DNA of 64,000 nucleotides. It comes from Adhaeribacter rhizoryzae. GTDB taxonomy: Bacteria; Bacteroidota; Bacteroidia; Cytophagales; Hymenobacteraceae. The position numbers and the translations under genes were made by a program. The stretch lies in assembly GCF_008629685.1 (NCBI RefSeq), contig NZ_VWSF01000018.1:62001-126000 (forward strand). Reading direction: 5' to 3'. This document shows, piece after piece, positions 6,884 through 30,006 of the stretch (the first letter of the stretch is position 1; every line of letters begins with the position of its first letter). Below the pieces are notes generated by a model that did not search any database, was not told the DNA's origin, and saw nothing but the letters and a program-made list of their open reading frames with translations.

Positions 6884-6928
6884 TTAAGATAAAAAAGATA
6901 ATTAGCATCCCTATCCTGTTGTGTCCTG
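6884..6928 (-). promoter_or_regulatory. Composite promoter, copy 1 (tandem CAGGAYA plus TAnnTTA)
   Basis: On the minus strand CAGGACA (6928-6922) and CAGGATA (6918-6912) start 10 bp apart. After exactly 20 bp comes TATCTTA (6891-6885), close to the Bacteroidota -7 element TAnnTTTG. It would start transcription about 100 bp before the 927-residue cytochrome gene. Three further copies with the same spacing occur at 17985, 23234 and 29962. I see nothing else definable in the gap 6778-7279, which also contains the leader of the divergent ABC transporter. Confidence 0.65.
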
Positions 6929-7279
6929 CCCACTTAAATTAGGTGCAGATTTACAGTTAAATAACGCTGAAAAATCATTCTGTTAATAAATATCTAAAAC
7001 CAAAAACTTAAGGTTTTGCGGCTAGGGCTAACATTGTTTGGTAGTTGATAAAACCTTAAATGCTTTAAGTGCTTTGCTCCGATTAATTAAATATAACCTA
7101 AAACCCAACTAAACAGAACTATATTTCCTGAATTTTTATCTGGTTTAATTTTAGGTTAACACGAATAATTTAAACTGTTTTAGCAAAATATTTACTTTTT
7201 TTAGGTCCAGAATCCCGACTGTTTTTTTAGATTACCAGCTATTAAGGTTTACAGCATATATTTATTCTTAAAGTTTTTC

Positions 7280-8779
7280 ATGAGTTTAAAGCAGCATTAT
7301 ATTCTGGAAGTACAAAACCTTTCCAAAAACTTTTCGGGGGTTAAAGCCTTGGATCAGGTGCAGCTTAAAATCCGGGAAGGCGAAGTACACGCCTTAATGG
7401 GCGAAAATGGCGCCGGAAAATCTACCTTAATGAAAATTCTGGCCGGTATGCTTACGCCGGATAGCGGTGAAATATTTTTTGAAGGCAACGCGCTGCACAG
7501 CCACCGGGATTTAAAAATATTAAGTGCCGGTATTGCCATGATTCACCAGGAAATGCTGCTGGTACCGGAGCTAACCGTGGCGCAAAATATATTTTTGGGT
7601 AAAGAAATCCGGAGAGGAAAAACCTGGTGGCTCGATGACCGAAGTTTAAACCAGAAGGCAACCGAACTGCTGGCCCAGGTAGGCATAGCGCTGGATGCCC
7701 GTACGCCCATGAAAAACCTGAGTGTGGCGGAGATGCAGATGGTAGAAATAGTAAAAGCTATTTCAAAAAATGCCAAAATCATTATTATGGATGAGCCCAC
7801 CTCCGCCATATCGGACAAAGAAGTAAAATCGCTGTTTAATATTATCTCGGATTTAAAAGCCCGGGGCGTAGCTATTATTTATATCTCGCATAAAATGGAC
7901 GAAATATTCCGGATAGCCGATACTATTACGGTTTTGCGCGATGGCAAATATATCCAGACCAAACCGGCCGCCGAGCTAAACCAGGATTCTTTAATCTCCC
8001 TGATGGTGGGCCGCGAGCTAGATACTATGTTTCCGGAGCACACCGAAGCGAAGGGGAATATATTGTTATCGGTGCAAGGGTTGGGCCGGCAAGGCAAATT
8101 TTCGGATATTAATTTTGAGGTGAGCGCCGGCGAAGTACTAGGCATTGCTGGCTTAATGGGTGCCGGTCGCACCGAAATTGCCCGCGCCATTAACGGTTTA
8201 GATGCGCCCGACACCGGCAATATTTATATTAAAGGCCAGAAGACAAAAATTAATTCGCCGCAGGATGCCATTAAAAACCGAATTGGGTACGTGAGCGAAG
8301 ACCGCAAAGAAGTTGGGCTGGTGCTGGGCATGTCGGTGAAAGAAAATATTACCCTGGCCAGTATAAAAAAGCACAAACGCGGGCTTTTTGTAGATGATGC
8401 CAGCGAACGCACTGCTGTTGCCAACATGATAGAAGCGCTGCGTATTAAAACGCCGCACCCCGATCAGCCGGTTAAGAACTTAAGCGGCGGTAATCAGCAA
8501 AAAGTGGCAATTGCCAAGGTTTTACTATCCTCCCCCGAAATTATTATCCTAGACGAGCCTACCCGCGGCATAGACGTAGGGGCCAAATTCGAAATATATA
8601 AACTAGTAAAAGACCTGGCCGCCCAGGGCCTGGCTATTATTATGATTTCATCGGAGTTACCGGAAATATTAGGCATGAGCGACCGGATTCTGGTGATGGC
8701 CGAAGGCAAACAAACGGCTACCTTACAAAAAGCAGAAGCCACCCAGGAATTAATAATGCAGTACGCCATGCCGCAATAG
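7280..8779 (+). CDS. Sugar ABC transporter ATP-binding protein, RbsA/XylG/MglA type
   Basis: 499 residues with two tandem ABC domains, the usual layout for monosaccharide importers. The first domain has Walker A GENGAGKST (41-49) and a Walker B ending MDEPTSA. The second has a degenerate P-loop (GLMGAGRTE), as is normal for this family, but a good signature LSGGNQQKV and Walker B LDEPTRGIDVG. It is a cytoplasmic ATPase that powers uptake of a ribose-, xylose- or galactose-like sugar. The permease follows after 25 bp. Sugar specificity cannot be read from the sequence. Confidence 0.95.
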   Translation: MSLKQHYILEVQNLSKNFSGVKALDQVQLKIREGEVHALMGENGAGKSTLMKILAGMLTPDSGEIFFEGNALHSHRDLKILSAGIAMIHQEMLLVPELTVAQNIFLGKEIRRGKTWWLDDRSLNQKATELLAQVGIALDARTPMKNLSVAEMQMVEIVKAISKNAKIIIMDEPTSAISDKEVKSLFNIISDLKARGVAIIYISHKMDEIFRIADTITVLRDGKYIQTKPAAELNQDSLISLMVGRELDTMFPEHTEAKGNILLSVQGLGRQGKFSDINFEVSAGEVLGIAGLMGAGRTEIARAINGLDAPDTGNIYIKGQKTKINSPQDAIKNRIGYVSEDRKEVGLVLGMSVKENITLASIKKHKRGLFVDDASERTAVANMIEALRIKTPHPDQPVKNLSGGNQQKVAIAKVLLSSPEIIILDEPTRGIDVGAKFEIYKLVKDLAAQGLAIIMISSELPEILGMSDRILVMAEGKQTATLQKAEATQELIMQYAMPQ

Positions 8780-8804
8780 CGCTTTATCTCAAAATATTCA
8801 CCAC

Positions 8805-9779
8805 ATGAAAGACACTATTCCCAACCTTACGCAAAACGGACCGAAAATTAATTTAAATATTGGCAAATACGGCCTTCTGGTGGCGCTCCTGCTATTGTGC
8901 ACCGCCTTAACCATTATTACTCCTAAGTTTTTAACCCTGCCCAATATTATGATTATTGTTACGCAGGTTACCATTAATGCGCTACTGGCTTTTGGCGTTA
9001 CCTTTATAATTATTACGGGCGGCATTGATCTTTCAGTAGGTTCGGTAGTGGCAGTTACAAGCGTAGCAACGGCCACCTTTGCCCGCGCCGATAATTACCC
9101 GCTGGTAGTACCGCTGGCAATGGGTTTACTCGTGGGTCTGGGTTTTGGGGCACTAAACGGCCTAGCTATTACCAAAGGCAAAGTGCCACCCTTTATTGTT
9201 ACCTTAGGCACCATGACTATTGGCCGGGGCCTCGCCCTGATTCTGAGCAAAGGCCGCCCTATTTCTAATTTATCGGATAGTTTTAATTACATTGGCAGTG
9301 GCAGTTTATTGGGTATTCCGCTGCCTATCTTAATATTAATTGTTGTTTTTATCGTCTGTACGCTACTCTTAAGAAAAACGGTTATGGGCCGGTACGTGTA
9401 TGCCGTAGGCGGTAACGAACAGGCAGCCCGCGCGTCGGGCATCAATGTAAATAAAGTAAAGCTTTTTGTATATACCTTAGGCGGTGGACTGGCGGCTTTG
9501 GCCGGTATTATTTTAACCTCCCGTATTTCCACGGGTCAGCCTAATGTAGGTATTGGTTTTGAGTTAAGCGCTATTGCCGCCGCTATTATCGGGGGCACCA
9601 GTACTTCGGGCGGCGTGGGCACCATAACCGGTACTTTGCTGGGTGCTTTGCTCATTGGGGTTATCAGCAACAGCCTCGATTTACTCAATGTTAGCTCATA
9701 TTACCAGCAGGTAGTCATGGGGCTCATTATTATTGGCGCTGTGCTGCTCGATAGTTTAAATAAGAATAAGGGGAATTAG
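8805..9779 (+). CDS. Sugar ABC transporter permease, RbsC type
   Basis: 324 residues, strongly hydrophobic, with about eight to ten membrane segments. The conserved loop GGNEQAARASGINV (about 202-215) matches the cytoplasmic coupling region of the RbsC/AraH/XylH family, and TGGIDLSVGS is another family signature. It forms the inner-membrane channel of the importer with the ATPase encoded 25 bp upstream. The binding-protein gene comes only after a 341-bp gap that holds two repeat elements. Confidence 0.95.
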   Translation: MKDTIPNLTQNGPKINLNIGKYGLLVALLLLCTALTIITPKFLTLPNIMIIVTQVTINALLAFGVTFIIITGGIDLSVGSVVAVTSVATATFARADNYPLVVPLAMGLLVGLGFGALNGLAITKGKVPPFIVTLGTMTIGRGLALILSKGRPISNLSDSFNYIGSGSLLGIPLPILILIVVFIVCTLLLRKTVMGRYVYAVGGNEQAARASGINVNKVKLFVYTLGGGLAALAGIILTSRISTGQPNVGIGFELSAIAAAIIGGTSTSGGVGTITGTLLGALLIGVISNSLDLLNVSSYYQQVVMGLIIIGAVLLDSLNKNKGN

Positions 9780-9783
9780 GTGT

Positions 9784-9818
9784 CTGGACGTTGGATGCTG
9801 GATATTGGATGTTGGATG
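9784..9818 (+). repeat. Five-unit heptamer tandem repeat
   Basis: Five consecutive 7-bp units CTGGACG, TTGGATG, CTGGATA, TTGGATG, TTGGATG (consensus YTGGAYR) begin 5 bp after the permease stop codon. This is a short tandem repeat with imperfect units; no function is evident. Confidence 0.7.
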
Positions 9819-9922
9819 TTCGCGTACTAAATAGTTGTTAGATACTAAATATTCAAATGGCACAAAGTATTACTACTGTTATGCAAAATGGAACAGTTTA
9901 CTTTTATTTGGACTTTAGCGCC

Positions 9923-9991
9923 CACCGGTGTCATTCAGGAGGAAACTATTTAGCAGGTAGCCAACAAGTTTCCTTCTGAATGACACCGGTG
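9923..9991. repeat. Long palindromic repeat, copy 1 (TCATTCAGGAGGAA family)
   Basis: Arms of 24 bp (9923-9946 and 9968-9991) match with a single mismatch around a 21-nt loop. The outer ends read CACCGGTGTCATTCAG. The same inner sequence TGTCATTCAGGAGGAA heads the palindromes at 27490 and 28805, so this is a dispersed element. It lies between the permease and binding-protein genes of the ABC transporter and could act as a terminator or mRNA stabiliser. Confidence 0.75.
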
Positions 9992-10120
9992 AATTACTTG
10001 AACCTTTCTGCTTTTAAGCAACGACAATAATCATTCAAAATGGTTCTATATTCAAGCGTAGATAACATTTATGACTTGGTACTGTATTTTTAAATTGATA
10101 GTTCTTTAAAATACCCACTT

Positions 10121-11065
10121 ATGCACCACAAATTGTTAAAGAAAACCTCATTTGCTGCTTTATTTACCCTTATCCTGTTCTCCGGCTGTAACCGCGGAAC
10201 AACCGAAGAAGCCGGCGGTGAAAAGCTGGTAATTGGCGCTACCATGCTGAGTATGCAGAACGAATTTATTGTAAACATTGCCGACGAGATGCAAAAGAAA
10301 GCCGACGAATTAGGTGTAGAACTAGTTTCGGTAGATGCGGAGCGCTCGGCTTTAAAGCAGGTAGAGCAGGTAGAAAGCTTTATTGCGCAGGGCGTTGATG
10401 CGATTATTCTAAACCCCTGCGAAGTAGAAGCCAGTTCGGCAGCCGTGCAAAAAGCGAAGGCGGCCAATATTCCCATCATCAATGTTAACTCCGCTACCAG
10501 CGCCACGCCTAATGCTTTTGTGGGCTCCGATGATGTAGAATCCGGCCGTATTGCCATGAAGCACATTGCCGAGAAGCTGGGCGGCAAAGGCAACGTATTT
10601 ATTATTCACGGCTACATGGGTCAGGCGGCGCAGCTACAGCGCGATAAAGGTGCTAAAGAAGTTTTAAAAGAATACCCCAATATAAAGCTGGTAGCCGAAC
10701 AAACCGGCGAGTGGGATCGTGCCAAAGCTATGTCGCTTACCGAAAACTGGATTCAATCGCACGGAAATAAAATAGACGCCATTTTTGCCCACAACGACGA
10801 GATGGGTATGGGTGCCGTAAAAGCCCTCGAAAATGCTAACCTAAACGATAAAGTTATTGTGGTAAGCATTGATGCCATAGCCGATGCCGTGCAAGCCGTG
10901 CAAAAAGGCCGCTTAGATGCTACCGTATTTCAGAATGCCCAGGAACAAGGCAGCAAAGCCATCGAAACCGCGGTAAAAATAGCCAAAGGCGAACAGTTCG
11001 ACAAAGAGGTAATGGTGCCTTTTAAATTAATTACCCAAGCCAATGTGGCCGAGATTGCCAAGTAA
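10121..11065 (+). CDS. Sugar ABC transporter substrate-binding lipoprotein, RbsB type
   Basis: 314 residues with a lipoprotein signal (FSGC, Cys23) and a type I periplasmic-binding fold (Peripla_BP_4). The early strand LVIGATMLSMQNEF and the hinge region AIFAHNDEMGMGAVKAL are typical of ribose/allose/xylose-binding proteins. In Bacteroidota such a lipoprotein would be anchored in the inner membrane facing the periplasm. It completes the importer of the two genes upstream, although 341 bp with repeats separate it from the permease. The ligand is not predictable. Confidence 0.93.
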   Translation: MHHKLLKKTSFAALFTLILFSGCNRGTTEEAGGEKLVIGATMLSMQNEFIVNIADEMQKKADELGVELVSVDAERSALKQVEQVESFIAQGVDAIILNPCEVEASSAAVQKAKAANIPIINVNSATSATPNAFVGSDDVESGRIAMKHIAEKLGGKGNVFIIHGYMGQAAQLQRDKGAKEVLKEYPNIKLVAEQTGEWDRAKAMSLTENWIQSHGNKIDAIFAHNDEMGMGAVKALENANLNDKVIVVSIDAIADAVQAVQKGRLDATVFQNAQEQGSKAIETAVKIAKGEQFDKEVMVPFKLITQANVAEIAK

Positions 11066-11617
11066 GTTTTAAAGACATTAAAAATATACTTCTAACCTTG
11101 AGCAAGCCAAGAGTATATTTTGATTGATACTTATCAGACATTTATCGAACCTGTTTAGCATTTATTCCAAAGAGTTAGTTAGCCGCCATGGGTGGTGTTA
11201 TCACCGCCCATTCTTGAAGATCAGTCCATTACTTGCCAGTGATAACACGCAGCAAGAGCTTCTCGGATTTAGATTTTTAAATAATAATTAGGTTCATTGT
11301 TTAAAACATATCAACGTACTTATTCAATAAGAAATAAAGCAGGCAAGTCTTGCCTATCCATATATGTTTCCTGCATAAGTCCTTTTAATCATTCTGCTAA
11401 ATCACCCAGCCAATCTTTACTTCTTTAAAAATTTTAGAAAACTTTTAAATATTTAACTTTTAATTCATACATTAAGGATTATTATTTTACCGCTTACCCG
11501 TATTTCTGCATTTTTCGCAGGAATATTCTTTTTATTGAAATTTTCTTAATTATATAAAATCGCAGGAGTACGCTTATAGAAACTTTTATTTCATTTTAAT
11601 TAAAAAGTGCTTTGCTG
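11066..11617. other. Gene-free interval with inverted repeats
   Basis: No credible gene is seen in these 552 bp. An AT-rich stem AAAATATACT (11081-11090) with AGTATATTTT (11112-11121) just after the binding-protein gene may be a weak terminator. GTGTTATCAC (11195-11204) and GTGATAACAC (11239-11248) are perfect 10-bp inverted repeats, and the left one also lies inside a GGGTGGTG/CACCGCCC hairpin. AGGCAAG-t-CTTGCCT (11341-11355) is a perfect operator-like palindrome. The last 150 bp are very AT-rich and probably hold the promoter of the next gene, but I cannot place it. Confidence 0.5.
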
Positions 11618-13933: not shown

Positions 13934-13936
13934 TTT

Positions 13937-15391: not shown

Positions 15392-15490
15392 AGAAGTTTT
15401 AAGTTGTATGTAATAAGTAGTAAGTGAAAAAATGAAGCGAAATAAATTAACGGCTCATTTGCTACTAAAAAATGAGATAACTCGTTTGCT

Positions 15491-17984: not shown

Positions 17985-18028
17985 CAGGACACAGCAGGAT
18001 TGATTACTCGAAATTATTCTATACATTA
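17985..18028 (+). promoter_or_regulatory. Composite promoter, copy 2 (tandem CAGGAYA plus TAnnTTA)
   Basis: CAGGACA (17985-17991) and CAGGATT (17995-18001) start 10 bp apart; after exactly 20 bp comes TACATTA (18022-18028). Predicted transcription would begin near 18036, giving an unusually long leader of about 285 bp before the SusC gene. The rest of the gap 17870-18320 is AT-rich with nothing else I can define. Confidence 0.65.
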
Positions 18029-18320: not shown

Positions 18321-21300
18321 ATGAAGGATTATTTACAACCCAAGCTGAAGTACTTGCTGCTACTTCAACTAATCTTAATTTCCTCTGCCAGCGTCTGGGC
18401 GCAGAGTCTCTCGGTTTCGGGCAAAGTAGCAGATGATAAAGGCGAAGGTTTACCGGGCGTAACGTTATTATTAAAAGGCACTACCAATGGTACCACCACC
18501 GATCCTAATGGTAATTATAGCATTAACCTGCCTAGTGGCGCCGGTGCTCTGGTTGTTTCGTTTGTAGGGTATCTTACGCAGGAAGTACCGGTTAATAACC
18601 GGAGTAACATTAATATTACCCTGGCTTCAGATGCCAAAGCCCTGGAAGAAGTAGTGGTAGTGGGTTATGGTACCCAGCGCAAACGCGACATTACCGCGGC
18701 GGTATCTAATATTAACATGGAAGATATTGGGGAAGTACCCGCCACTAACGTAACCCGGCTTATTCAAGGCCAAGCGCCCGGCGTTGCCGTGAAGCAGAAA
18801 AACGGCACACCCGGCGGCCAGTTTGAAGTGCGCGTGCGGGGCATTAGTTCTTTGGGGGCTGGCAGCGACCCATTGTATGTAATAGATGGTTTTGCGGTGG
18901 GTACCAGCGTAGGCCAGAACTTAAACCCGAACGACATTGAAAGTATTACCATCCTGAAAGATGCGGCCTCTACCGCTATTTACGGTGCCCGGGGTTCTAA
19001 CGGGGTAGTACTCATTACCACTAAAAATGCCCAGGAAGGCAAAGTAAATTTATCGTTTACCGCCGATTACGGAGTACAGAATGTGCCGGACTCCCGCCGG
19101 GTAAAAGTGCTGAATGGGGTAGAATTTGCCCAGTTTAAAAAAGAAGTTTTCGAGGATAATTTCCGGTACTTCCAAGGTCGGGAACCAGCCCTGGAAGATG
19201 TTCCCATCGGGTACCGTTATCCGGAGCAAACCAAATATTCTACTGACTGGTTCGACGAAATTATGAACAATAATGCGCCCTACCAGGATTATAACTTAAC
19301 CCTTTCGTCCGGTAAAGGTCCTATTAAATCTTTATTATCGGTTGGGTATTTTAAAGAACAAGGCTCAATTATTAAAACCAATTACGAGCGGATTTCGGCC
19401 CGTGCCAATATTGCCGGCGAAATAAATAAATTTATTTCAATGGGCTTCAATATTAACGGCAGCCACTCCAAGCAAAACGTTGCCAATACCGATGGCCGCA
19501 GCGCCTTGGTAGGTTCTACTTTAATCATGGACCCGCGCGAACCCGTGCGTAACGAAGACGGCACCTTACGCCCTTACATTGGTGGCACCGATGGTGTATT
19601 TGGTTTCCCTAATCCGGTATTTATGCTGCACAATATTATGCGGCGCCGGAATATTGCCGATGCTTTGGCCAACGGTTATTTAGAATTTACCCTGCTGAAA
19701 GGATTAAAATTCCGGTCGGCGGTTAATGCCAAAATTAACTTTAATACCTACAAAGAATATGTGCCATCTACCATTGGCTTGGCTGTAGCCTCCGGAACTT
19801 CGGGTGCGCCGCCGCGTATTGCCACCGCCCGTGAAATTAACGAACAGCTTTACAACCTCTCTACCGACCAGTTGCTGACTTACGCCCCCGAACTGGGTGC
19901 CAACCACCACCTGGATTTACTGGTTGGTTTTACCGGACAGAAAGAAACCGTGCGGGGCATTGATGGCTCGGGCAATACTTTCCCCGACGATTTAGTACCT
20001 TATTTAGGAGCGGCTTCTTTGCGTTCGTCTAACTCTTACGAAAACGGCTGGACTTTACTGGCTTACCTAAGCCGGGTAAATTATTCTTTTAAAGATAAAT
20101 ATTTATTCTCGGCTTCTATGCGGCGCGAAGGCAGTTCGCGGTTTGGGGCCGGCAATAAATACGGCAATTTCCCGGCCCTTTCGCTGGGCTGGCGCTTATC
20201 CGAAGAATCGTTTATGCCGCAGTATAGCTGGTTGAGCGACTTAAAACTACGCGGTAGCTGGGGTATGACCGGTAACAACAATATTGGTAACTACTCGCAC
20301 CTGGCTTTCATGAACGCCAACAACTATATTTTAGGCAATGCTTTTGCGCCGGGCAAAGTAGTAAGCCAATTTGCCAACGAAGAACTGGGTTGGGAAAAAT
20401 CGAACCAGCTAGACTTAGGCTTAGACTTAGCGTTGCTCGATAATAAAATTGTTTTCACCGCCGAGTATTACAAAAAAATTACCGACGACATGCTGCTGCC
20501 TATCTCCATCCCATCCGTATCGGGCTTTACCAGCAGCTTAGCCAATATTGGTAAGGTAGAAAACAAAGGTTTCGAATTTGGCCTGGATTTCAGAACCAAT
20601 ATTGGTCCGGTAAATATTCGCACCAGCCCCAATATTGCCTTTAACCGCAACAAAATATTAGCCATTAAAGGCGAAAACGACATGCTTTGGTACGGTGGTT
20701 TCTACGGCGGCTACAACGTGCAAAAAGTAGGCCGGCCCATTGGTATGATTTACGGCTACCGCAAACTGGGTATTTTTAACACCCAGGCCGAAATTGATGC
20801 CGCCCCCAAACAAGACGGCGTAATTCCGGGCGGTATGAAATTCTGGGATGCTGATGGGAATGGCGAAATCACGTATGATACCAAAGATATGGTAGAAATC
20901 GGCAACCCTAACCCATCCTTTACCTGGGGCTGGAACTTTGCCGCCGATTACAAACGCTTCGATTTTAGTATTTTGTTTATGGGCGCTCATAACTACGATG
21001 TATACCGCAATATTGAGGCCTCAACCATGAACATGGACGGCGTATTTAACGTGCTGGACAAAGCCAAAGATCGCTGGCGGTCGCCCGAAAATCCGGGTTC
21101 TAACCCTAATCACAAAAACTCGCAGGGCGGTACCAATTACTTTAAATGGTCTAGAGAAAGCAGCGAACGCTACGTGTACGATGCCAGCCACCTATGGGTA
21201 AAAAATATTACCCTGGGCTACACATTGCCTAAAATGAAATCTTTCCTGACCGATGCCCGCATTTTTGTGAATGCTGCCAACATGTTCCTGATTACCGACT

Positions 21301-21413
21301 ACCCTGGCAATAACCCGGATGCCGGCGTAAGAGGCGGAACCGAGCTGAACAACGACGATGAGTCTTACCCTGTTCCAAGAACATTCTCTGTAGGTGCCAG
21401 AATTAACTTCTAA
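18321..21413 (+). CDS. SusC/RagA family TonB-linked outer-membrane protein (first pair)
   Basis: 1030 residues with a signal peptide ending near VWAQ (residue 28). A carboxypeptidase-regulatory-like beta-sandwich (about 30-105) precedes the TonB-box region ALEEVVVVGYGTQRK (107-121), the plug (about 122-235) and a large beta barrel. The C-terminus ends in an aromatic, as outer-membrane barrels do (RINF). It imports oligosaccharides or other large ligands, powered by TonB, with its SusD lid encoded 12 bp downstream. No glycoside hydrolase is nearby; haem proteins surround the pair. The composite promoter at 17985-18028 lies upstream. Confidence 0.96.
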   Translation: MKDYLQPKLKYLLLLQLILISSASVWAQSLSVSGKVADDKGEGLPGVTLLLKGTTNGTTTDPNGNYSINLPSGAGALVVSFVGYLTQEVPVNNRSNINITLASDAKALEEVVVVGYGTQRKRDITAAVSNINMEDIGEVPATNVTRLIQGQAPGVAVKQKNGTPGGQFEVRVRGISSLGAGSDPLYVIDGFAVGTSVGQNLNPNDIESITILKDAASTAIYGARGSNGVVLITTKNAQEGKVNLSFTADYGVQNVPDSRRVKVLNGVEFAQFKKEVFEDNFRYFQGREPALEDVPIGYRYPEQTKYSTDWFDEIMNNNAPYQDYNLTLSSGKGPIKSLLSVGYFKEQGSIIKTNYERISARANIAGEINKFISMGFNINGSHSKQNVANTDGRSALVGSTLIMDPREPVRNEDGTLRPYIGGTDGVFGFPNPVFMLHNIMRRRNIADALANGYLEFTLLKGLKFRSAVNAKINFNTYKEYVPSTIGLAVASGTSGAPPRIATAREINEQLYNLSTDQLLTYAPELGANHHLDLLVGFTGQKETVRGIDGSGNTFPDDLVPYLGAASLRSSNSYENGWTLLAYLSRVNYSFKDKYLFSASMRREGSSRFGAGNKYGNFPALSLGWRLSEESFMPQYSWLSDLKLRGSWGMTGNNNIGNYSHLAFMNANNYILGNAFAPGKVVSQFANEELGWEKSNQLDLGLDLALLDNKIVFTAEYYKKITDDMLLPISIPSVSGFTSSLANIGKVENKGFEFGLDFRTNIGPVNIRTSPNIAFNRNKILAIKGENDMLWYGGFYGGYNVQKVGRPIGMIYGYRKLGIFNTQAEIDAAPKQDGVIPGGMKFWDADGNGEITYDTKDMVEIGNPNPSFTWGWNFAADYKRFDFSILFMGAHNYDVYRNIEASTMNMDGVFNVLDKAKDRWRSPENPGSNPNHKNSQGGTNYFKWSRESSERYVYDASHLWVKNITLGYTLPKMKSFLTDARIFVNAANMFLITDYPGNNPDAGVRGGTELNNDDESYPVPRTFSVGARINF

Positions 21414-21425
21414 ATTTTGATTAAG

Positions 21426-22931
21426 ATGAAAAAAATAACTGCTATAGGTATTATTTGTCTCAGCCTGATTGGGTATTCGTGCGACGATGACTTTTTGGTT
21501 ACCACCGACCCCACCCGTATTGGCTCCGACCTTTTCTATAAAAATCAGACTCAGGTAGAACAAGCCCTGAACGGTGTTTACGGCCAATTGCAAGGCATTA
21601 CCAACACGGCCTACCTTTTCAAAGAATTTACCTCCGATAATACCACCCTCGATTTTAACCCCTTAGACCGGGGCGGGGCCAGCGGCTGGGAAGCTTTTGA
21701 GTTCTCAACGGTAAATTCGGGTAACGGCGAAATTTCTAATATGTGGAACGGGTATTACTCGGCCATCTACAACGTAAACTTTACCCTCGAAAAACTAGCG
21801 GCCAGCACTACCATCGATCAAGCGGCCAAAGGCCCCTTAGAAGGACAATTAAAATTTATTCGGGCTTTTTATTATTTCGATTTGGTGCAATATTTCGGCG
21901 ATGTGGTTTTAACAACGGCTACCTTAAAAAAGCCCGAAGAAGCTTTTGCTTTGCTGCGCACCCCGCAAGCCGATGTTTATGCCCAGATTGAAAAAGACTT
22001 AAAAGAAGCCGCTGCGGCCCTGCCCGATAAATACAACGCCGCCAATGCCGGCCGGGTAACCAAGGGGGCCGCTTTAACCCTGCTGGGCAAAATGTATTTA
22101 ACCAAAAAACAATACGCCGAAGCCGTAACTACCCTGCAGCAAGTTTTGCCTTTGGGTTATGCCTTAAATACTAACTATGCCGATAATTTCGACCCAACCA
22201 AAAAGAACGGTGTAGAATCTATTTTTGAAGTGCAGTACCAGGGTGGCAACGATTTGGGCGAATGGAGCAGCTTTATGTATACCTTTGCGCCCCGGCTATC
22301 GGCGGCGGCTGTCACGGGTTTTGGCAACGTGGTACCGGGCGGGCGCAATATTCCAACCAACGATATGATAGCGGCTTACGAACCCAACGATATCCGGAAA
22401 GATATTTCTTTAAAAACTGGCTACACCAATGCCAAAGGCGAATTTGTACCCGTGCCGTTTATTAATAAATATCGCCACCAGCATACCATTGCCGGCCGCA
22501 CCGATAATAACTGGCCCGTGTTAAGATATGCCGATGTATTGCTGATGCTGGCCGAAGCCATGAACGAAGTATCGGGACCTACGACCGAAGCTTACGGCTA
22601 CCTGAATCAGGTGCGCAAACGGGCAAAACTAGACGAACTGGCAAACCTCGACAAAACTACTTTCCGGGAAAAAGTGCTGCACGAAAGACGCGTAGAACTG
22701 GCCTTTGAAAACCACCGGTGGTTCGATTTAAAACGCACCAAATCCCCGGCCGAACTAGCGCAGTTTATGAATGCGTACGCAACCAAAGAAAAAGCAAACC
22801 CCACCGTGCCCCGCGGCGGCGTAGCGTTTAATGCCCTCGATTATGTTTATGTCGAAAACGAACATGTGTTTCCCATACCAGCTCCGCAAATTTTAATTAA
22901 TGATAAACTAAGCCAGAACGTGGGCTATTAA
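21426..22931 (+). CDS. RagB/SusD family nutrient-uptake lipoprotein (first pair)
   Basis: About 501 residues starting at the ATG at 21426 (MKKITAIG); a TTG at 21417 is a possible but poorer start. Lipoprotein signal with LIGYSC, followed by DDDF as in outer-surface lipoproteins of the phylum. TPR-like helices in the first half and the C-terminal segments ENHRWFDLKRT and FPIPAPQILINDKLSQNVGY mark a complete SusD. It is the surface lid that captures substrate for the SusC encoded 12 bp upstream. Confidence 0.95.
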   Translation: MKKITAIGIICLSLIGYSCDDDFLVTTDPTRIGSDLFYKNQTQVEQALNGVYGQLQGITNTAYLFKEFTSDNTTLDFNPLDRGGASGWEAFEFSTVNSGNGEISNMWNGYYSAIYNVNFTLEKLAASTTIDQAAKGPLEGQLKFIRAFYYFDLVQYFGDVVLTTATLKKPEEAFALLRTPQADVYAQIEKDLKEAAAALPDKYNAANAGRVTKGAALTLLGKMYLTKKQYAEAVTTLQQVLPLGYALNTNYADNFDPTKKNGVESIFEVQYQGGNDLGEWSSFMYTFAPRLSAAAVTGFGNVVPGGRNIPTNDMIAAYEPNDIRKDISLKTGYTNAKGEFVPVPFINKYRHQHTIAGRTDNNWPVLRYADVLLMLAEAMNEVSGPTTEAYGYLNQVRKRAKLDELANLDKTTFREKVLHERRVELAFENHRWFDLKRTKSPAELAQFMNAYATKEKANPTVPRGGVAFNALDYVYVENEHVFPIPAPQILINDKLSQNVGY

Positions 22932-22945
22932 ATTATCTTAGTTTT

Positions 22946-22992
22946 AAAAGCAGACAACCCGGCCGGATTCCGGTTCAGGGTTGTCTGCTTTT
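22946..22992 (+). terminator. Strong intrinsic terminator after SusD
   Basis: A perfect 15-bp stem AAAAGCAGACAACCC (22946-22960) pairs with 22978-22992 and ends in TTTT. The 17-nt loop has an inner CCGG/CCGG pair. It lies 14 bp after the SusD stop and separates the first SusCD pair from the next gene. Confidence 0.88.
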
Positions 22993-23233
22993 ATTTAGTA
23001 TAAGTCTTCCCTTTTTCCAGGTCCTGCTTTCCCAAAAATATTCCGGCTCCCGACAAGTAAAATAATAGAGAAAATATTGATTCCGGTATAGCTTCCTTAG
23101 AAGTCCTTCGAAGCTTTATGATTGATTATCAATCTGGTAAATAAATATTAATTAGCACTATTGCTTGCATTAGTCAGAAAAATTACGGATACTTAAGGTT
23201 AAGCCGCTCTTTTGCGTTCTCGTACCCGCTAAG

Positions 23234-23278
23234 CAGGATAGTACAGGATAGTTATTTTGCTGTAGTTAATTATATTAG
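23234..23278 (+). promoter_or_regulatory. Composite promoter, copy 3 (tandem CAGGATA plus TAnnTTA)
   Basis: Two identical CAGGATA half-sites (23234-23240, 23244-23250), then exactly 20 bp, then TATATTAG (23271-23278), a near match to TAnnTTTG. It would start transcription about 50 bp before the fused cytochrome gene at 23338. The remainder of the gap 22993-23337 shows nothing further. Confidence 0.7.
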
Positions 23279-23337
23279 AAATTGATTTAAGCCGAAACGA
23301 CCCGAATAATTTCTCCAGGATTTATAACACCACCTAA

Positions 23338-25845
23338 ATGAATCTGAAAAGTATTAATTCTTATAAATTCTTTGCCCTCTTTGTTGTTTTAGTGGCTATT
23401 ACCTTTTGCCCTTTATTTTTAGCAGAAGGTCTCGCCGACCCGGTTGTTGCGGCGGCTTCGGGCACCGAAAATAATACCTTTTGGTTCTTTAAATTATTAG
23501 GCCGCTTGCACCCGCTGGCGGTGCATTTTCCGGTAACTTTATTGTGTCTGGCTGCTTTGTTAGAAGTAGTTACGCTAAAAGATTTTAATTCCCGGCTCCG
23601 GCCCGGTATCGATTTGCTGGTAATATTAGGTGCGGCAGGAGCGGTGCTTTCGGCCATTCTGGGCTGGATGCTGGCTGGCCAGGAAGATTACGGCGGCGAT
23701 ACCCTCGCCATTCACCGCTGGACCGGTGTAGCTACGGCCGTGCTGGGTATTATTTCGGCTTACTTTCTTTATATTATCGAGAAAAAAGATCGCTGGAATT
23801 TAATTAAATATTACCGGGCGATTATTTTGTTTACGGCAGTAGGCGTTACAGCGGCTGGTCATTACGGCGCTTCCTTAACCCACGGCGATGTGTACCTCAC
23901 CAGCGTTATTCCCTGGAGCCAAGATTACGAAGGCGAACCAAAAGGCAAAAGCAGTTTCAGTCTGGTTTCGCTTAAAGGTAATAAATTAAGCCACGAGCAG
24001 GAAATAGAATTAAATACCCAGGTAAGGGCAATATTTGCCCACAACTGCTATAAATGCCACAGCTCCGATAAAATTAAAGGCGAACTGCGCCTCGACGAGC
24101 GGGATTTGGTATTTAAAGGCGGCAAACACGGGCCAATAATAGAACCCGGTAAGCCGCACCAAAGCGAAATAATCCGACGGATAAACCTGCCCCGCAGCCA
24201 CAAAGAAGCCATGCCGGGCAAAGGCAAACCCCTGAGCAAAGAAGATATTCAGCTAATTACTTATTGGGTAGAAAAAGGGGCTCCGTGGCCGGACAAAGGG
24301 CAGAAAAGTATTTTTAGGGTAGCCGAGCTAAAACCCCGGAACCCCGCCTTACCCGAAGCCACGCAAAGCTTACAAAACCCTGTAGATTTATGGGTAAACG
24401 AATATTTTAAGAAGACCCAGGTAACCTGGCCCGCCGTGGTCAGCGACCGGATTTATTTAAGAAGAATATACCTCGATATTATTGGGATGGTACCCACACC
24501 GGAAGAGCTAAATGCCTTTGCCCAGGATACCCGCCCCGATAAACGCAATATTTGGGTACGGCAATTATTAAACCGCAACGACGATTACGCCCTGCACTGG
24601 CTTACTTTCTGGAACGATGCCCTTCGCAACGATTATTCCGGCACCGGCTATATTACCAACGGCCGCTCTAATATTTCGGATTGGTTGTACAAATCACTGC
24701 AATCAAACAAGCCCTATAACCAGTTTGTAAAAGAACTGTTGAACCCGAGTAAAGGATCAGAAGGGTTTATTAATGGCATTAAATGGCGCGGGGCGGTAAA
24801 TGCCAGCCAGCGCACCGAAATGCAGGCGGCCCAAAACGTATCGCAGGTATTATTGGGACTTAACTTAAAATGTACTTCCTGCCACGATAGCTTTATTAGC
24901 GACTGGAAACTGAAAGATGCTTACGCTTTTGCGAATATTTTTGCTGACAGCACCCTGGAAATAAACCGCTGCGATGTGCCCACCGGTAAAATGGCCGAAA
25001 CCAAAATATTATGGGAAGAACTGGGTACCATAGACGAAGCGGCCCCGGTGAAAGAAAAACTACGGCAACTGGCCGAAAACCTGACTAAACCGGCCAACGG
25101 GCGCCTGTACCGCACTATTGTAAACCGCATCTGGGCCCAGTTTTTAGGCAGAGGCATTGTAGCGCCCGTAGATGCCATGGATAACGAGCCCTGGAGCCAG
25201 GATCTGTTGGATTGGCTGGCCTCAGATTTTGTAGCCCGCAATTATGATTTGAAAGAACTGATTTACCTGATCACCACCTCCAAAACTTACCAGTTACCAT
25301 CAGTAAAAATTCAGGACGAACAAAAAATAAATGCCCAGGATTTCCGGTTCACGGGCATGTTGCGGAAGCGAATGTCGGCGGAACAATTTGCCGATGCCGT
25401 GAGCCGCGCTATTCAACCGGTTTACGCCGATTCGGCGGTACAGTACAAACATTTTCCTGAATTAAAGCCCGAAGAAGCCAATGCACCTTTTGTACGGGCC
25501 TCTTTGGTGAAAAACGATGGTTTCCTGACTGCTTTAGGCCGGCCAAACCGCGAAACCGTAATTACGGGCCGCGATTCACAGGCTAACCTGCTGCAAGCCC
25601 TGGAACTAACCAATGGCAAAGCTTTTAACGCCGTGCTAAAAAGAGGTGCCGAAAGCTGGGTTTCCCGCTACAAAGACAGCGATACCATTGTGCGGCAAGT
25701 TTACCGCAAAGCACTGGGCCGAACACCTTTACCTAAAGAATTGCAGGTAGCGAAACAAGTGCTGGGCGAAACCCCGGACACCGCCGCGGTGCAGGATTTC
25801 CTATGGGCCGTGGTGCTGCTACCCGAGTTTCAGTTGATATATTAA
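23338..25845 (+). CDS. Membrane-anchored DUF2231/PSCyt1/DUF1549/DUF1553 fused cytochrome
   Basis: 835 residues. The N-terminus (about 1-185) has roughly five membrane segments of DUF2231 type with LHPLAVHFP (His58, His63), IHRW (His126) and GHYGASLTHG (His175, His182), the same histidine pattern as the 723-residue protein at 15698. PSCyt1 follows with CYKCH (237-241), then DUF1549 (about 345-540) with CTSCHDSF (512-519), then DUF1553 to the end. It therefore joins in one chain what the first module splits into two proteins. I infer a membrane-bound redox enzyme with two c-type haems; the substrate is unknown. Composite promoter at 23234-23278; a DUF1501 gene follows after 83 bp. Confidence 0.85.
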   Translation: MNLKSINSYKFFALFVVLVAITFCPLFLAEGLADPVVAAASGTENNTFWFFKLLGRLHPLAVHFPVTLLCLAALLEVVTLKDFNSRLRPGIDLLVILGAAGAVLSAILGWMLAGQEDYGGDTLAIHRWTGVATAVLGIISAYFLYIIEKKDRWNLIKYYRAIILFTAVGVTAAGHYGASLTHGDVYLTSVIPWSQDYEGEPKGKSSFSLVSLKGNKLSHEQEIELNTQVRAIFAHNCYKCHSSDKIKGELRLDERDLVFKGGKHGPIIEPGKPHQSEIIRRINLPRSHKEAMPGKGKPLSKEDIQLITYWVEKGAPWPDKGQKSIFRVAELKPRNPALPEATQSLQNPVDLWVNEYFKKTQVTWPAVVSDRIYLRRIYLDIIGMVPTPEELNAFAQDTRPDKRNIWVRQLLNRNDDYALHWLTFWNDALRNDYSGTGYITNGRSNISDWLYKSLQSNKPYNQFVKELLNPSKGSEGFINGIKWRGAVNASQRTEMQAAQNVSQVLLGLNLKCTSCHDSFISDWKLKDAYAFANIFADSTLEINRCDVPTGKMAETKILWEELGTIDEAAPVKEKLRQLAENLTKPANGRLYRTIVNRIWAQFLGRGIVAPVDAMDNEPWSQDLLDWLASDFVARNYDLKELIYLITTSKTYQLPSVKIQDEQKINAQDFRFTGMLRKRMSAEQFADAVSRAIQPVYADSAVQYKHFPELKPEEANAPFVRASLVKNDGFLTALGRPNRETVITGRDSQANLLQALELTNGKAFNAVLKRGAESWVSRYKDSDTIVRQVYRKALGRTPLPKELQVAKQVLGETPDTAAVQDFLWAVVLLPEFQLIY

Positions 25846-25928
25846 CCTAAGCAGCATCCTTGGTAAAGGACAGTTGGGAAATATTTCAGATTTGTAAATT
25901 TTAGAAATTATTTAAATTAATTATTGCC

Positions 25929-27446
25929 ATGCAATCCAAATGGAACCGAAGAGAATTTTTAAAAACGGCTAGTACGGCAACCCTGGGCGCGTTGGCGGCT
26001 GGTGCTCCGGTAGCCGGTTTGTTATCCTCGTGCAGCAGCAGTAGCGATAAAAATAAAAAACTACTGGAATCAGATACGGTTAAACAGCGCTTAGCCAATT
26101 CAACCGCCGATACCGTAATTTTGCTTTGGATGGCCGGCGGCATGGCCCATACCGATACCTTCGACCCAAAACAATATACTCCCTTCGAAAAAGGCCTGGA
26201 CTCTAACCGGGTGCTGAGTACGTTTAAAGCAGTGCCTACGGTGCTCGATGGTGTAAATTTTTCGGAAGGCCTGGAATCAATTGGTAAAGTAATGGATAAA
26301 GGCACTTTAATCCGGTCTTACGTAGCCGCCGATTTAGGTCATATTTTGCATTCGCGACACCAATACCACTGGCACACTTGTTACGAACCGCCGCAATCGG
26401 TAGCCGCGCCCCATATGGGTGCCTGGATTGCCAAAGAGTTAGGTGCTAAAAACCCGGTAATTCCGGCTTTTATTGATATTGGGCAACGCTTAACTTTAGG
26501 CGAAGGCGAAGAATTAAAAGCTTTTCATACCTCCGGCTTTTTGGGCAATGAATTTGGGCCGTTTATGATTCCGGACCCAACTACGGGCCTCGACAGCGTA
26601 AAACCACCGGTAGGTATGTCGTACAAACGTTTCGAAAAGCGCAACGAATTATACAACAAACTGATTAGCGAAAGTGCCTTCGGCGAATTTGGCAGCGATT
26701 ACCAAAAAGAATCCCTGCGTCGGGCTATGGAGCAATCGTATATGTTGCTCAACTCACCCGAAGCCAAAGCTTTTGATTTAAGCACCGAACCAAAAGAAAG
26801 CTACGATATTTACAATACCGGCAAGTTTGGTTTAGGCTGTTTACTGGCCCGTCGCCTCACTGAAAAAGGTGCCCGCTTTATAAGTGTAACCACCGAGTAT
26901 GTACCTTTTATGGGTTGGGATACGCACGAAAACGGCCATACCCGCCTGAAGGACATGAAAAAAGAAATAGATGCCCCGGTGGCCCAGTTAATCAAAGACC
27001 TGGAACGTACCGGCCATTTGGATCGTACCTTGGTAATATTAGCCAGTGAGTTCAGCCGCGACATGATGCTGGAAGGCCGTCCGGGCGCCGAAGTAAAACA
27101 TCAGGTAGATCAGCCTACCATTATTAACGATATTAAGAATTATGGTATGCACCGCCACTTTACCGATGGCTGCTCTATTCTAATGTTTGGTGGCGGCATT
27201 CAAAAAGGTCATGTGTACGGCAAAACTGCCGACGAACGCCCCTGCAAAACCATTGAAAAACCAATAAAAATTGACCAGGTTCACCAATCTATTTACCATG
27301 CGTTGGGCATACCCGAAGATGCACACGCCATTGTGGAAGAGCGGCCTTTTTACACCACCCCCGATGGCGTGGCTAAACCGGTAATGGAATTATTTGGTAA
27401 GAAAGAAGTAAAAGCAGACGCCGGAGAAGAGGTTAAAGAAGCCTAA
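25929..27446 (+). CDS. DUF1501 domain protein, Tat-exported lipoprotein
   Basis: 505 residues. NRREFLKTAS is a good twin-arginine motif, followed by a hydrophobic stretch and a lipobox-like LLSSC, so it is probably a Tat-dependent lipoprotein. The DUF1501 fold shows its expected segments: LWMAGGMAHTDTFDP (about 62-76), MGWDTHENGH, ILASEFSRDM, HRHFTDGCSILMFGGGIQKG and DQVHQSIYHALGIP. It is the second DUF1501 in the window and, like the first, directly follows a DUF1549/DUF1553 cytochrome. The reaction is unknown. Confidence 0.88.
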   Translation: MQSKWNRREFLKTASTATLGALAAGAPVAGLLSSCSSSSDKNKKLLESDTVKQRLANSTADTVILLWMAGGMAHTDTFDPKQYTPFEKGLDSNRVLSTFKAVPTVLDGVNFSEGLESIGKVMDKGTLIRSYVAADLGHILHSRHQYHWHTCYEPPQSVAAPHMGAWIAKELGAKNPVIPAFIDIGQRLTLGEGEELKAFHTSGFLGNEFGPFMIPDPTTGLDSVKPPVGMSYKRFEKRNELYNKLISESAFGEFGSDYQKESLRRAMEQSYMLLNSPEAKAFDLSTEPKESYDIYNTGKFGLGCLLARRLTEKGARFISVTTEYVPFMGWDTHENGHTRLKDMKKEIDAPVAQLIKDLERTGHLDRTLVILASEFSRDMMLEGRPGAEVKHQVDQPTIINDIKNYGMHRHFTDGCSILMFGGGIQKGHVYGKTADERPCKTIEKPIKIDQVHQSIYHALGIPEDAHAIVEERPFYTTPDGVAKPVMELFGKKEVKADAGEEVKEA

Positions 27447-27489
27447 ATTAATTTGATTATTTAGCTGTAAAAAGCTAAGTTTAAGGAAC

Positions 27490-27578
27490 CCACTCTTGTC
27501 ATTCAGGAGGAAACTTTTTAGCAGGCAGCCAAATAGGTTCCTCCTGGAATCCTCGGATTCCCAGAATGACAAGAGTGG
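27490..27578. repeat. Long palindromic repeat, copy 2, with a nested hairpin
   Basis: Outer arms CCACTCTTGTCATTC (27490-27504) and GAATGACAAGAGTGG (27564-27578) pair perfectly over 15 bp. The inner AGGAGGAA pairs with TTCCTCCT. The right arm carries an extra hairpin GGAATCC-tc-GGATTCC (27546-27561) absent from the other two copies. It lies 44 bp after the DUF1501 stop. Confidence 0.72.
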
Positions 27579-27664
27579 ATTACTAAGAAAATTGATTCTT
27601 TTGCCTAACCTACCTAGATAAATATTCAGCTCCCAAAAGATAAAATATTAACCAGTAACAAATA

Positions 27665-28735
27665 ATGGAAAACACCACCACTAACAAAAGACGTGAATTT
27701 CTAAAAAAAACCGGTACTGCTTTGGCCGTCAGTGCTTTCTTCCCGACTATTTGGGTAAAAAAAAGTTTTGGTCAAAAAATGGGAGCCACGCTGGGGCATA
27801 ATTCGCATCGTTACCGGGTAGTAGAAGGCTGGGGCGTTTTGGATGCCGGTAAAAATCCGGTAAACGACTGCCACGAAATGGTAGAAGATGCCAAAGGCCG
27901 CTTAATTATGCTGACGAACGAAACCCGCAATAATATTTTAATTTACGACAAATCGGGCAAACTGCTGGAGACCTGGGGCAACAGCTACCCTGGTGGGCAT
28001 GGCTTAACGTTAAGTAACGAAGGCGGCGAACAATTTCTGCTGATTACCGATACCGACCGCAACCAGGTAATTAAAACTGACCTAAAAGGGAAAGAAATAT
28101 TTAAAATTGATTATCCCCGCCAAATTAAAGAATATAACCATCCCGGCGAATTTAAACCCACCGAAACTGCCGTAAACCCGGCCAACGGCGATATTTACGT
28201 AGCCGACGGTTACGGCCGGAACTTTGTAACCCAGTATAACAGCAAAGGCGAATATATCCGGCATTTTGGTGGCAAAGGCGCCACCGACGGTACTTTTGAA
28301 TGTTGCCACGGCGTACTAGTAGATACCCGCGACGCGAAAAACCCCACGTTGCTGATAACTGACCGCTCGCACACCAGCCTGAAACGATTTACTTTAGACG
28401 GAAAATATTTGGCTACTATTCCGGTGCCGGGGTCGTTTATTTGCCGGCCCGTATTAAAAGGCAAAAACCTGTACGCGGCCGTTTACCGCAGCACTTCCCA
28501 GGATTATAAAGACTCGGGCTACATTACCATTTTCAATGAGAAAGACCAGGTAATTTCTACACCGGGCGGCACCGAGCCGAAGTACGTAAAGAATGTGTTA
28601 CAAGAGCAGCGCAAAGATCGCTCCTTTATGGGATTTCTGCATCCGCACGATGTTTGCGTAGATTCCGACGAGAGTATTTACGTACCGCAGTGGGCTTCCG
28701 GCAAAACTTATCCGGTTAAATTAGAAAGGATTTAA
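27665..28735 (+). CDS. Tat-exported NHL-type six-bladed beta-propeller protein
   Basis: 356 residues with a twin-arginine signal RREFLKKTGTALAVSAFFP near residues 9-27. The mature part has repeated propeller strands of NHL type (NNILIYDKSGKLLETWG, NPANGDIYVADGYGRNFV, GKYLATIPVPGSFICRPV, HPHDVCVDSDESIYVPQW), similar to peptidyl-alpha-hydroxyglycine-lyase-like proteins of unknown function. It follows the DUF1501 gene after 218 bp, which contain a palindromic repeat. Tat export suggests that it folds or takes up a ligand before export. A role as periplasmic partner of the cytochromes is inference. Confidence 0.8.
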   Translation: MENTTTNKRREFLKKTGTALAVSAFFPTIWVKKSFGQKMGATLGHNSHRYRVVEGWGVLDAGKNPVNDCHEMVEDAKGRLIMLTNETRNNILIYDKSGKLLETWGNSYPGGHGLTLSNEGGEQFLLITDTDRNQVIKTDLKGKEIFKIDYPRQIKEYNHPGEFKPTETAVNPANGDIYVADGYGRNFVTQYNSKGEYIRHFGGKGATDGTFECCHGVLVDTRDAKNPTLLITDRSHTSLKRFTLDGKYLATIPVPGSFICRPVLKGKNLYAAVYRSTSQDYKDSGYITIFNEKDQVISTPGGTEPKYVKNVLQEQRKDRSFMGFLHPHDVCVDSDESIYVPQWASGKTYPVKLERI

Positions 28736-28804
28736 GGCAAGAGACCGACTCCTGATGAAATATTAACTTTAAAATTCTAAAGTAAGAAAAGTATATTTCA
28801 CCAT

Positions 28805-28965
28805 TGTCATTCAGGAGGAACCTATTTGGCTGATTCAGTTTTGATTGCCAAGAATTATTCTGCCTTGGTAAATGGATAGATTTTGTAAAACAAACTATTG
28901 TTAGACTTGGATTTACCAGTAGCTAAAGCCATTGAATCAGCTAAATAGGTTCCTCCTGAATGACA
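28805..28965. repeat. Long palindromic repeat, copy 3 (33-bp arms)
   Basis: Arms at 28805-28837 and 28933-28965 match over 33 bp with one mismatch and enclose 95 bp of unrelated DNA. The ends start TGTCATTCAGGAGGAACC, the sequence shared with the copies at 9923 and 27490. The size and terminal inverted repeats resemble a small MITE. It fills most of the 307-bp gap between the NHL gene and the DUF4468 gene (28736-29042), where I see nothing else. Confidence 0.75.
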
Positions 28966-29042
28966 CGAGAGGATGCATTTACATTGCCTTTGGTTTAATC
29001 ACCATAAGTTTTTCTTTATTTTTATAGCCATTCCTGCTCCTT

Positions 29043-29591
29043 CTAAAGCATACTCTTTTTAAAATCTTTAATTAAAGCTACTATGCTATCATAAGCCGAA
29101 CTTTCCAACGATTTATGAAATATTACCTTCTCTCCTTTTAACGCTACTTCGTTTTTAGCTAATACCAATTCTTCTAAAGGCACTTTAGCTGCCTTAAGTT
29201 CTTTTGTTCCTGCTTCTTTTGTTGATTGTATTTCCTGCAACTGGAAATCTGTAATGCTATACCAGTAGTGGTCATCTTCCATTTCTATCTTAACGGTGAA
29301 CCATAGCCGGAATTTCTGGGCTTGGTGCCCCTCGCGTACCAAAAGCACCCGATAACTAGCCCCGATTATTAACCCATTTGCTAAATCATCAACTTGTAAA
29401 GCTTTTTTGTTTTGAACAGAGGAAGAAAACCAGGCTTTGGCCCGGTTATACAAATCAAACTGCGGGCCGTCCTTTACCAGCACTTCTTCGGCGTAATATA
29501 TTTTACCCGAAAGCGCATCTACCGGAAAAACCTGCGCGGAAGCATGAAAGGGCATTAGCAGAAAAAAAAGCGAAAGAATTTTTACAAGCAT
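29043..29591 (-). CDS. DUF4468 domain protein, secreted
   Basis: 182 residues with a signal peptide ending near ASAQ (residue 19). The body matches the DUF4468 pattern (a TBP-like fold found in Bacteroidota): KAWFSSSVQN, the turn GLIIGASYRVLL, FRLWFTVKIEMEDDHYWYSITDFQLQ, then a charged helical tail. Its function is unknown. It is the only minus-strand gene within the central redox/SusCD block, and no partner gene is evident. Confidence 0.8.
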   Translation of the reverse strand: MLVKILSLFFLLMPFHASAQVFPVDALSGKIYYAEEVLVKDGPQFDLYNRAKAWFSSSVQNKKALQVDDLANGLIIGASYRVLLVREGHQAQKFRLWFTVKIEMEDDHYWYSITDFQLQEIQSTKEAGTKELKAAKVPLEELVLAKNEVALKGEKVIFHKSLESSAYDSIVALIKDFKKSML

Positions 29592-29961
29592 AAAATACGA
29601 AGATACACTTTCAGCGACCTAATTTAGAATGAGCGCTAAATATTTGTAACAGTAAGAACGCTGGCCAGTCCTGTTCTGGCTAAGCAATTAATAATTCTTG
29701 GCGATAATTATAAAATATAAGCTACTACTTACGCCCATAAAACTTTTAAAATCAATATTCTGATGCTTTTCCTGCTTTCAGATTGCCTTCTTACCTATAA
29801 ATATTAAATAAACTTAGCCTGCCGGGCTATTCAACTTAAAATTAGAAATATTCTATACAAAAAATATAATTGTTTATTATTCAACAGAAAACGTTGCCGC
29901 TTTAAAATTATTCAACCAACCCCCTTTAATTAGATAAGTTTTAATAAATATTCTCAAAAGG

Positions 29962-30006
29962 CAGGATAGCACAGGATAGTTAACGAACACACACCTTATA
30001 AATTAG
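29962..30006 (+). promoter_or_regulatory. Composite promoter, copy 4 (tandem CAGGATA plus TAnnTTA)
   Basis: CAGGATA (29962-29968) and CAGGATA (29972-29978), exactly 20 bp, then TAAATTAG (29999-30006). It is the best-conserved of the four together with the copy at 23234. Transcription would start about 100 bp before the second SusC. The rest of the gap 29592-30113 is AT-rich with nothing else I can define. Confidence 0.7.

Follow-up and report, generated by a model that had tools for sequence, protein, structure and literature searches.

The composite promoter pattern that occurs four times in a 64,000-nucleotide stretch of the Adhaeribacter rhizoryzae genome (contig NZ_VWSF01000018.1, positions 62,001 to 126,000; hereafter the window, which is part of contig C10 of this 6.5-Mb genome, G000) probably marks the operators and core promoters of a regulon for L-rhamnose and rhamnogalacturonan, bound and activated in class II fashion by a ligand-carrying GntR-family protein with a LacI-type sugar domain. 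An earlier note on the same DNA had described the pattern as two half-sites followed by a -7-like element, CAGGAYA-N3-CAGGATW-N20-TAnnTTA, and had read it as defining a redox/SusC regulon. The repeated pattern itself is confirmed: all four sites match it without a mismatch (Table 1), the window is expected to hold 0.01 composite matches by chance even when up to two mismatches are allowed, and none of 100 shuffles reached four. The downstream genes are those that the note had named, namely the 927-residue heme protein, two SusC genes and the DUF2231-PSCyt fusion, and its positions for the sites are borne out, except that three of its ranges are one base too long.

The whole A. rhizoryzae genome contains eight strict half-site pairs, against none for a reversed-pattern control. 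TAnnTTW stands at N20 behind six of these eight; the two pairs that lack it are C9:114432 and C45:122501, the latter with TAAATAA. Half-sites alone with up to two mismatches gave 117 matches against 29 for the reversed pattern and are mostly noise, and therefore only near-strict sites were used. From ten one-mismatch matches, four (C9:112912, C9:114235, C10:53899 and C14:85541) were chosen for having TAnnTTW at N20 and the six that lack it there were dropped, so that the box found in 10 of the 12 kept sites (eight strict and four selected for it) is to be read beside the unbiased figure of 6 of 8. The pair at C9:114432 (L031:11433-11449) is a perfect one that lies some 200 bp from the promoter site of RhaT in divergent orientation, and is perhaps an auxiliary operator.

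A fair test of spacing uses half-site pairs selected without the -7 box, and across 59 genomes such a search returned 82 strict pairs in 16 genomes, against 2 for the reversed controls. With 4 unreadable and 6 own-genome pairs left out, TAnnTTW lies exactly at N20 in 49 of 72 pairs, while every other offset holds at most two; three of the pairs without the N20 box belong to G019 and G038, genomes that lack the GntR protein. Further counts come from regions fetched from 13 genomes, which were picked by the composite pattern, with its fixed 10-bp period and -7 box, and are therefore biased upward; a site in them has at most one mismatch. Among their 143 near-strict sites, 103 have the box at N20, and 103 pairs lie at spacing 10. 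The matches are not strewn at random or inside genes, the outcome that the earlier note had held would speak against its pattern: in these pattern-chosen regions 137 of the 143 sites fall outside open reading frames (ORFs), and the median distance to the next ORF start is 143.5 bp (122 sites with an ORF start within 450 bp). The half-sites recur with a period of 10 bp, and the proposed operator consists of two direct repeats in tandem, with spacer bases that vary. In a matrix of the 143 sites the -7 element reads TAnnTT(T/A)(A/G), which we take to resemble the Bacteroidota housekeeping consensus TAnnTTTG. The same matrix contains no conserved element between the second half-site and the -7 box, and the second half-site therefore appears to take the -33 place.

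The genes behind the sites are revealing of the function of the regulon. In the A. rhizoryzae genome, sites precede a RhaEW-isomerase-kinase group and RhaT on C9, RhaM-GH106 on C45, GH88 on C18, a 3-keto-disaccharide hydrolase and SusCD on C10, and a tagaturonate reductase on C14. RhaEW, RhaT and RhaM score above their NCBIfam cut-offs; the isomerase lies below its cut-off (515 bits, where the rhizobial type requires 647) and the kinase far below. In the fetched regions a site stands directly upstream of RhaEW in 7 of 7 cases, of the 3-keto-disaccharide hydrolase in 7 of 7 and of RhaT in 7 of 8, every one of them with TAnnTT at N20. A site also lies directly in front of 25 of 37 SusC genes (23 with TAnnTT at N20) and of 5 of 9 RhaM genes (3 at N20); three more RhaM genes follow a site within an operon, so that this core rhamnose catabolic gene is downstream of a site, directly or in an operon, in 8 of 9 cases. 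GH88, GH28, GH43, GH2 and sulfatase genes are also found downstream of sites in other genomes. Because sites stand upstream of rhamnose genes outside the window, the SusCD pairs and heme proteins within it are to be regarded as part of a rhamnose regulon, of which they are only some members, and the designation as a redox/SusC regulon is not supported. The GH106 rhamnosidase behind the RhaM site (L034:9939-12779, G000:C45) is read as two adjacent ORFs of 216 and 720 residues, a split that may reflect a frameshift, decay or an assembly error.

Orthologs of the 927-residue heme protein have a site directly upstream in 8 of 8 cases in the fetched regions, with the -7 box at N20 in six and at N21 in two. 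The protein is present in 13 of 59 genomes, 12 of which also encode a full-length GntR homolog, the thirteenth being G007, a genome that is 78% complete. Orthologs of the DUF7133 protein in the fetched regions follow a site directly in 4 of 8 cases and within an operon in 2, and have neither arrangement in the other 2. The idea that all PSCyt cytochromes belong to the regulon was rejected, since in the fetched regions no site accompanies the PSCyt773 protein or the DUF2231-LRR protein (0 of 4 each), and in the A. rhizoryzae genome a site lies directly in front of only one of six strong PSCyt1 genes. According to the accessible part of a 2017 paper (PMC5615132), nothing is known of the functions of PSCyt/PVC-type cytochromes. 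The rhamnose operator provides a functional handle on these proteins, and its main value is that one PVC-type heme protein and one PSCyt protein are placed in a rhamnose regulon. On the basis of this shared control, it may be speculated that the heme proteins help to oxidise rhamnosides together with the 3-keto-glycoside enzymes. Orthologs of the 927-residue protein in G002, G007 and G046 contain one or two in-frame stops, and in the window an IS200-like Y1 transposase gene (3348-3800) adjoins the site-controlled heme gene.

Judging from sequence and predicted structure, the likely regulator is a GntR-type protein encoded near RhaM-GH106, outside the window (Table 1). Its winged helix (PF00392, residues 16-78, 44.6 bits against a cut-off of 27) places it in the GntR family, and its C-terminal periplasmic-binding-protein-like sugar domain (PF13377, 42.6 bits against a cut-off of 26.5) marks it as a hybrid. 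The aminotransferase domain that defines MocR types had no match in the 338 residues, and the best NCBIfam match of the helix-turn-helix (HTH), PdxR, reaches 50.5 bits against a cut-off of 320. The predicted structure (pLDDT 87.6) is similar to those of LacI, PurR and AscG, with TM scores of about 0.6-0.7. Of the transcription factors encoded in the site-bearing regions, this is the one that recurs, being present in 11 of 13 genomes, and in a twelfth, G001, its gene lies just past the first fetched stretch. The earlier note knew of no described regulator for the site; a GntR-family protein can now be proposed, and the dimeric activator that the note envisaged is still something that we infer.

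Supporting this assignment, the sites and the protein tend to occur in the same genomes. Among 58 relatives, at least four composite matches are found in 11 of the 12 genomes whose GntR ortholog is 59% identical or more, versus 2 of the 46 others; these two exceptions are the 78% complete G007 and G009, where the GntR protein next to the sites is 50% identical. At class level, in 294 genomes excluding A. rhizoryzae itself, 8 have both protein and motif, 16 the GntR protein only, 5 the motif only and 265 neither (Fisher p 6e-7), although both co-occurrence statistics ignore shared ancestry. The five motif-only genomes have one three-mismatch match each, like the three matches of the reversed pattern.

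Operator and regulator covary. In seven Hymenobacter-like genomes with GntR proteins of 46-49% identity, the isomerase promoter next to the GntR gene contains CAGGAGAGTTCAGAA(C/G)AGTT, with TAnnTTTG 20 or 21 bp past the second half-site (counted by eye), and similar repeats with scores of 17 or 18 are found at the isomerase promoter of five named Hymenobacter loci. Paralogous GntR loci exhibit another tandem repeat of 10-bp period that resembles (CAGTAGAGTA)(CAGTAGAGTT), which is seen by eye at 5 of 7 loci and is exact at one (G006); the HTH reads AKVTVAKAY in two aligned paralogs versus SRDTVEKAY in the rhamnose type. The paralogous GntR/LacI hybrids that lie beside their own repeat are those of L152, L153/L237, L238, L239 and L241, and those of L152 and L153 adjoin Gfo/Idh/MocA-like and sugar ABC-like genes.

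The motif also extends well beyond the close relatives. A relaxed form of it gave 42 matches in 80 named GntR loci, against 1, 1, 2 and 2 for the reversed and three shuffled patterns, and 14 of the 18 best matches have TAnnTT at N20. Scores of at least 16 were reached by 31 of 267 upstream regions, in 25 of the 80 loci, and by 0 of 267 with the reversed pattern. The motif-bearing loci include Pontibacter, Hymenobacter, Algoriphagus, Arenibacter, Belliella, Mucilaginibacter and Flavihumibacter, and range from Cytophagia to Flavobacteriia. When repeats were sought without regard to sequence, period 10 alone was not in excess (642, versus 342-762 for other periods); an excess appeared only when period 10 was combined with a -7 box 20-21 bp further on (22 and 23 versus 2-9, with overlapping registers counted).

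In the mechanism proposed here, the operator would be a tandem direct repeat of 10-bp period, roughly (CAGnnnAGTn)(CAGnnnAGTT) and at these promoters CAGGAYA-N3-CAGGAYA. The GntR-family protein would bind it with two winged-helix domains, which the 10-bp period would align on the same face of the DNA in head-to-tail order. The bound protein would extend from about -49 to about -33 and stand in for the contact that the housekeeping sigma factor makes at -33; once loaded with its ligand, it would act as a class II activator and drive transcription from the TAnnTT(T/A) -7 box. The content of the regulon and the LacI-type domain point to a rhamnose-type ligand, with L-rhamnose itself or one of its derivatives as the probable candidate. 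A class II activator is the most likely form of control because the operator takes the -33 place at a near-fixed spacing, which a repressor does not need. Thus the promoter reading of the earlier note can be retained as to the shared class, the one-face repeat in the -33 place, the -7 box TAnnTT(T/A) and, by virtue of spacing and position, a probable activator, but not as to the redox/SusC regulon.

Several observations, beside the neglect of shared ancestry, weigh against this mechanism or against the GntR protein as its agent. The GntR gene has a site directly in front in only 1 of 11 cases in the fetched regions, and autoregulation was rejected on the same count. At class level 16 of 24 genomes with GntR homologs have no detected motif, and 3 of the 8 with both rest on a single three-mismatch match. 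The strict A. rhizoryzae site at C9:114432 has no -7 box at N20, about 16 bp separate the second half-site from the -7-like element downstream of it at L152 and L237, and L240 and L242 showed no repeat of the paralog type (the last two observations by eye). A score of at least 15 was reached in none of 12 Dyadobacter and 5 Chitinophaga loci, so that either the family does not share this code throughout or the proteins of these loci act at sites of another kind. Furthermore, GntR proteins generally bind inverted repeats, according to the part of PMC5320631 that was accessible.

Alternatively, the same GntR protein may govern the same regulon as a repressor that blocks the -33 region until rhamnose releases it, which we consider unlikely but still the main rival. 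GntR/LacI hybrids such as AraR of Bacillus are repressors released by sugar, a related chain is entered in the PDB as 'Arabinose metabolism transcriptional repressor', and a site over -33 would block polymerase. By its title, as cited in PMC12323373 and PMC9296495, Dudek et al. 2020 deals with a GntR-family protein that represses alginate catabolism in Zobellia galactanivorans, which likewise speaks for repression and against activation. However, the near-fixed spacing to the -7 box is not needed by a repressor, and the promoters keep no -33 consensus for unaided polymerase. It is more improbable that a DeoR- or AraC-family rhamnose regulator encoded elsewhere acts at these sites and that the GntR gene is a mere neighbour, although some evidence runs in this direction: RhaR proteins of DeoR type have motifs made of direct repeats of 10-11 bp, the RhaR of Bacteroides is of AraC type (both from PMC3870299, in part), and an AraC gene lies near the GntR gene both in A. 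rhizoryzae and in G001. Co-occurrence disfavours a DeoR regulator, since clear DeoR-HTH matches (E < 1e-11) are absent from the site-rich G006, G009, G012 and G033, which have weak ones only, and present in the site-free G011, G022, G024 and G055. The neighbouring AraC gene was rejected as a candidate as well, its cluster spanning only 3 of the 13 genomes in the fetched regions, with a further copy in G001; moreover, AraC rhamnose motifs have a 21-bp period in the available text of PMC3870299 versus 10 bp at these sites. A regulator encoded elsewhere also fits poorly with operator variants that adjoin GntR variants.

Two further explanations carry very little weight. That the pattern serves an ECF sigma factor as its -35 element is a very remote prospect: the fixed distance to the -7 element would suit it, but that element resembles the housekeeping consensus, and the equality of the two half-sites, together with their offset of one helical turn, fits a repeated DNA-binding domain. 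A regulon in which cytochromes and SusC genes respond to redox state is hardly credible at all: it accords with the site-bearing genes inside the window, which are heme proteins and SusC, but not with the rhamnose catabolic genes behind sites outside it, nor with a site at a single one of the six strong PSCyt1 genes. The class II activator of GntR/LacI type remains the explanation that we prefer.

The remaining genes of the window include some without sites of their own. A sugar ABC transporter (ATPase, permease and binding protein, 7280-11065) lies between site-bearing genes but has no site itself; it is ribose/xylose-like, with scores below the cut-offs. A rhamnogalacturonase/epimerase-like pectate-lyase-fold protein (42236-44548, minus strand) also lacks a site. 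The genes that follow the second SusCD pair, starting with the DUF7133 protein, possibly continue its operon.

Table 1. Promoter sites and genes of the window, and the candidate regulator gene outside it
Feature	Location	Strand	Remarks
Composite promoter CAGGACA-N3-CAGGATA-N20-TATCTTA	6885..6928	-	Exact match; upstream of 927-aa heme protein
Composite promoter CAGGACA-N3-CAGGATT-N20-TACATTA	17985..18028	+	Exact match; upstream of SusC, ATG 18321
Composite promoter CAGGATA-N3-CAGGATA-N20-TATATTA	23234..23277	+	Exact match; upstream of DUF2231-PSCyt fusion, ATG 23338
Composite promoter CAGGATA-N3-CAGGATA-N20-TAAATTA	29962..30005	+	Exact match; upstream of SusC, ATG 30114
PVC-type heme-binding protein, 927 aa	3994..6777	-	TIGR02603 above cut-off, TIGR02604 below
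SusC (18321-21413) and SusD (21417-22931) pair	18321..22931	+	
DUF2231-PSCyt1-PSCyt2-PSD1 protein, DUF1501 protein, NHL/6-bladed propeller protein	23338..28735	+	Operon suggested by spacing
Second SusC (30114-33203) and SusD (33231-34736) pair	30114..34736	+	
DUF7133/GDSL/cytochrome c protein, ThuA-like protein, xylose-isomerase-like TIM-barrel protein	34955..40093	+	
GntR-family protein with LacI-type sugar domain, 338 aa	G000:C45:119878-120891		Near RhaM-GH106, outside the window

A wider evolutionary scenario may be entertained, tentatively and with more doubt than conviction. A Bacteroidota-wide GntR/LacI subfamily may have dropped palindromic repression, adopted tandem 10-bp (CAGnnnAGTn)x2 operators in place of the -33 box and become sugar-gated class II activators, with the operator code held in the three middle bases. 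The rhamnose member of the Hymenobacteraceae might then command an oxidative route outside the cytoplasm, with Gfo/Idh/MocA and 3-keto-glycoside enzymes oxidising rhamnosides and PVC-type heme proteins receiving the electrons.

The described rhamnose regulators are of AraC, DeoR and LacI types according to the main text of Rodionova et al. 2013 (PMC3870299), in which the term GntR does not appear. As outlined there, regulons of the RhaR/RhaS type likewise control rhamnose transport, mutarotase, isomerase, kinase, aldolase and rhamnogalacturonan genes, but the regulator here is of GntR type, and the operator sequence and host range differ; DeoR-type RhaR is alike in operator form, with direct repeats of 10-11 bp there and 10 bp here. 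The MocR types (GabR, PdxR) often use direct repeats and frequently activate, as far as the available portion of PMC5320631 goes, so that they share the form of the operator but carry an aminotransferase sensor instead of a LacI-type one. In Bacteroides, the accessible text of PMC3878776 presents FucR (BT1272) of B. thetaiotaomicron as a GntR-family regulator for fucose, also a deoxyhexose pathway, which likens it to the present protein by family and pathway alone, and RhaR (BT3768) as an AraC regulator of rhamnose with a single target operon. The GntR protein of Zobellia, likened by title alone, is also a regulator of polysaccharide use in Bacteroidota, but is described as a repressor. Among the literature matches listed, there is no description of this operator or of a GntR rhamnose regulator in Bacteroidota. 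AraR and similar hybrids (PDB 4egy and kin) share the GntR winged helix and the LacI-type sugar domain with the candidate; AraR binds palindromes and represses, whereas the operator proposed here would repeat directly, in tandem, and is placed as if for an activator. A GntR/LacI hybrid that uses direct repeats in such a position, in several Bacteroidota lineages, would add a regulatory design to those that these known systems represent.

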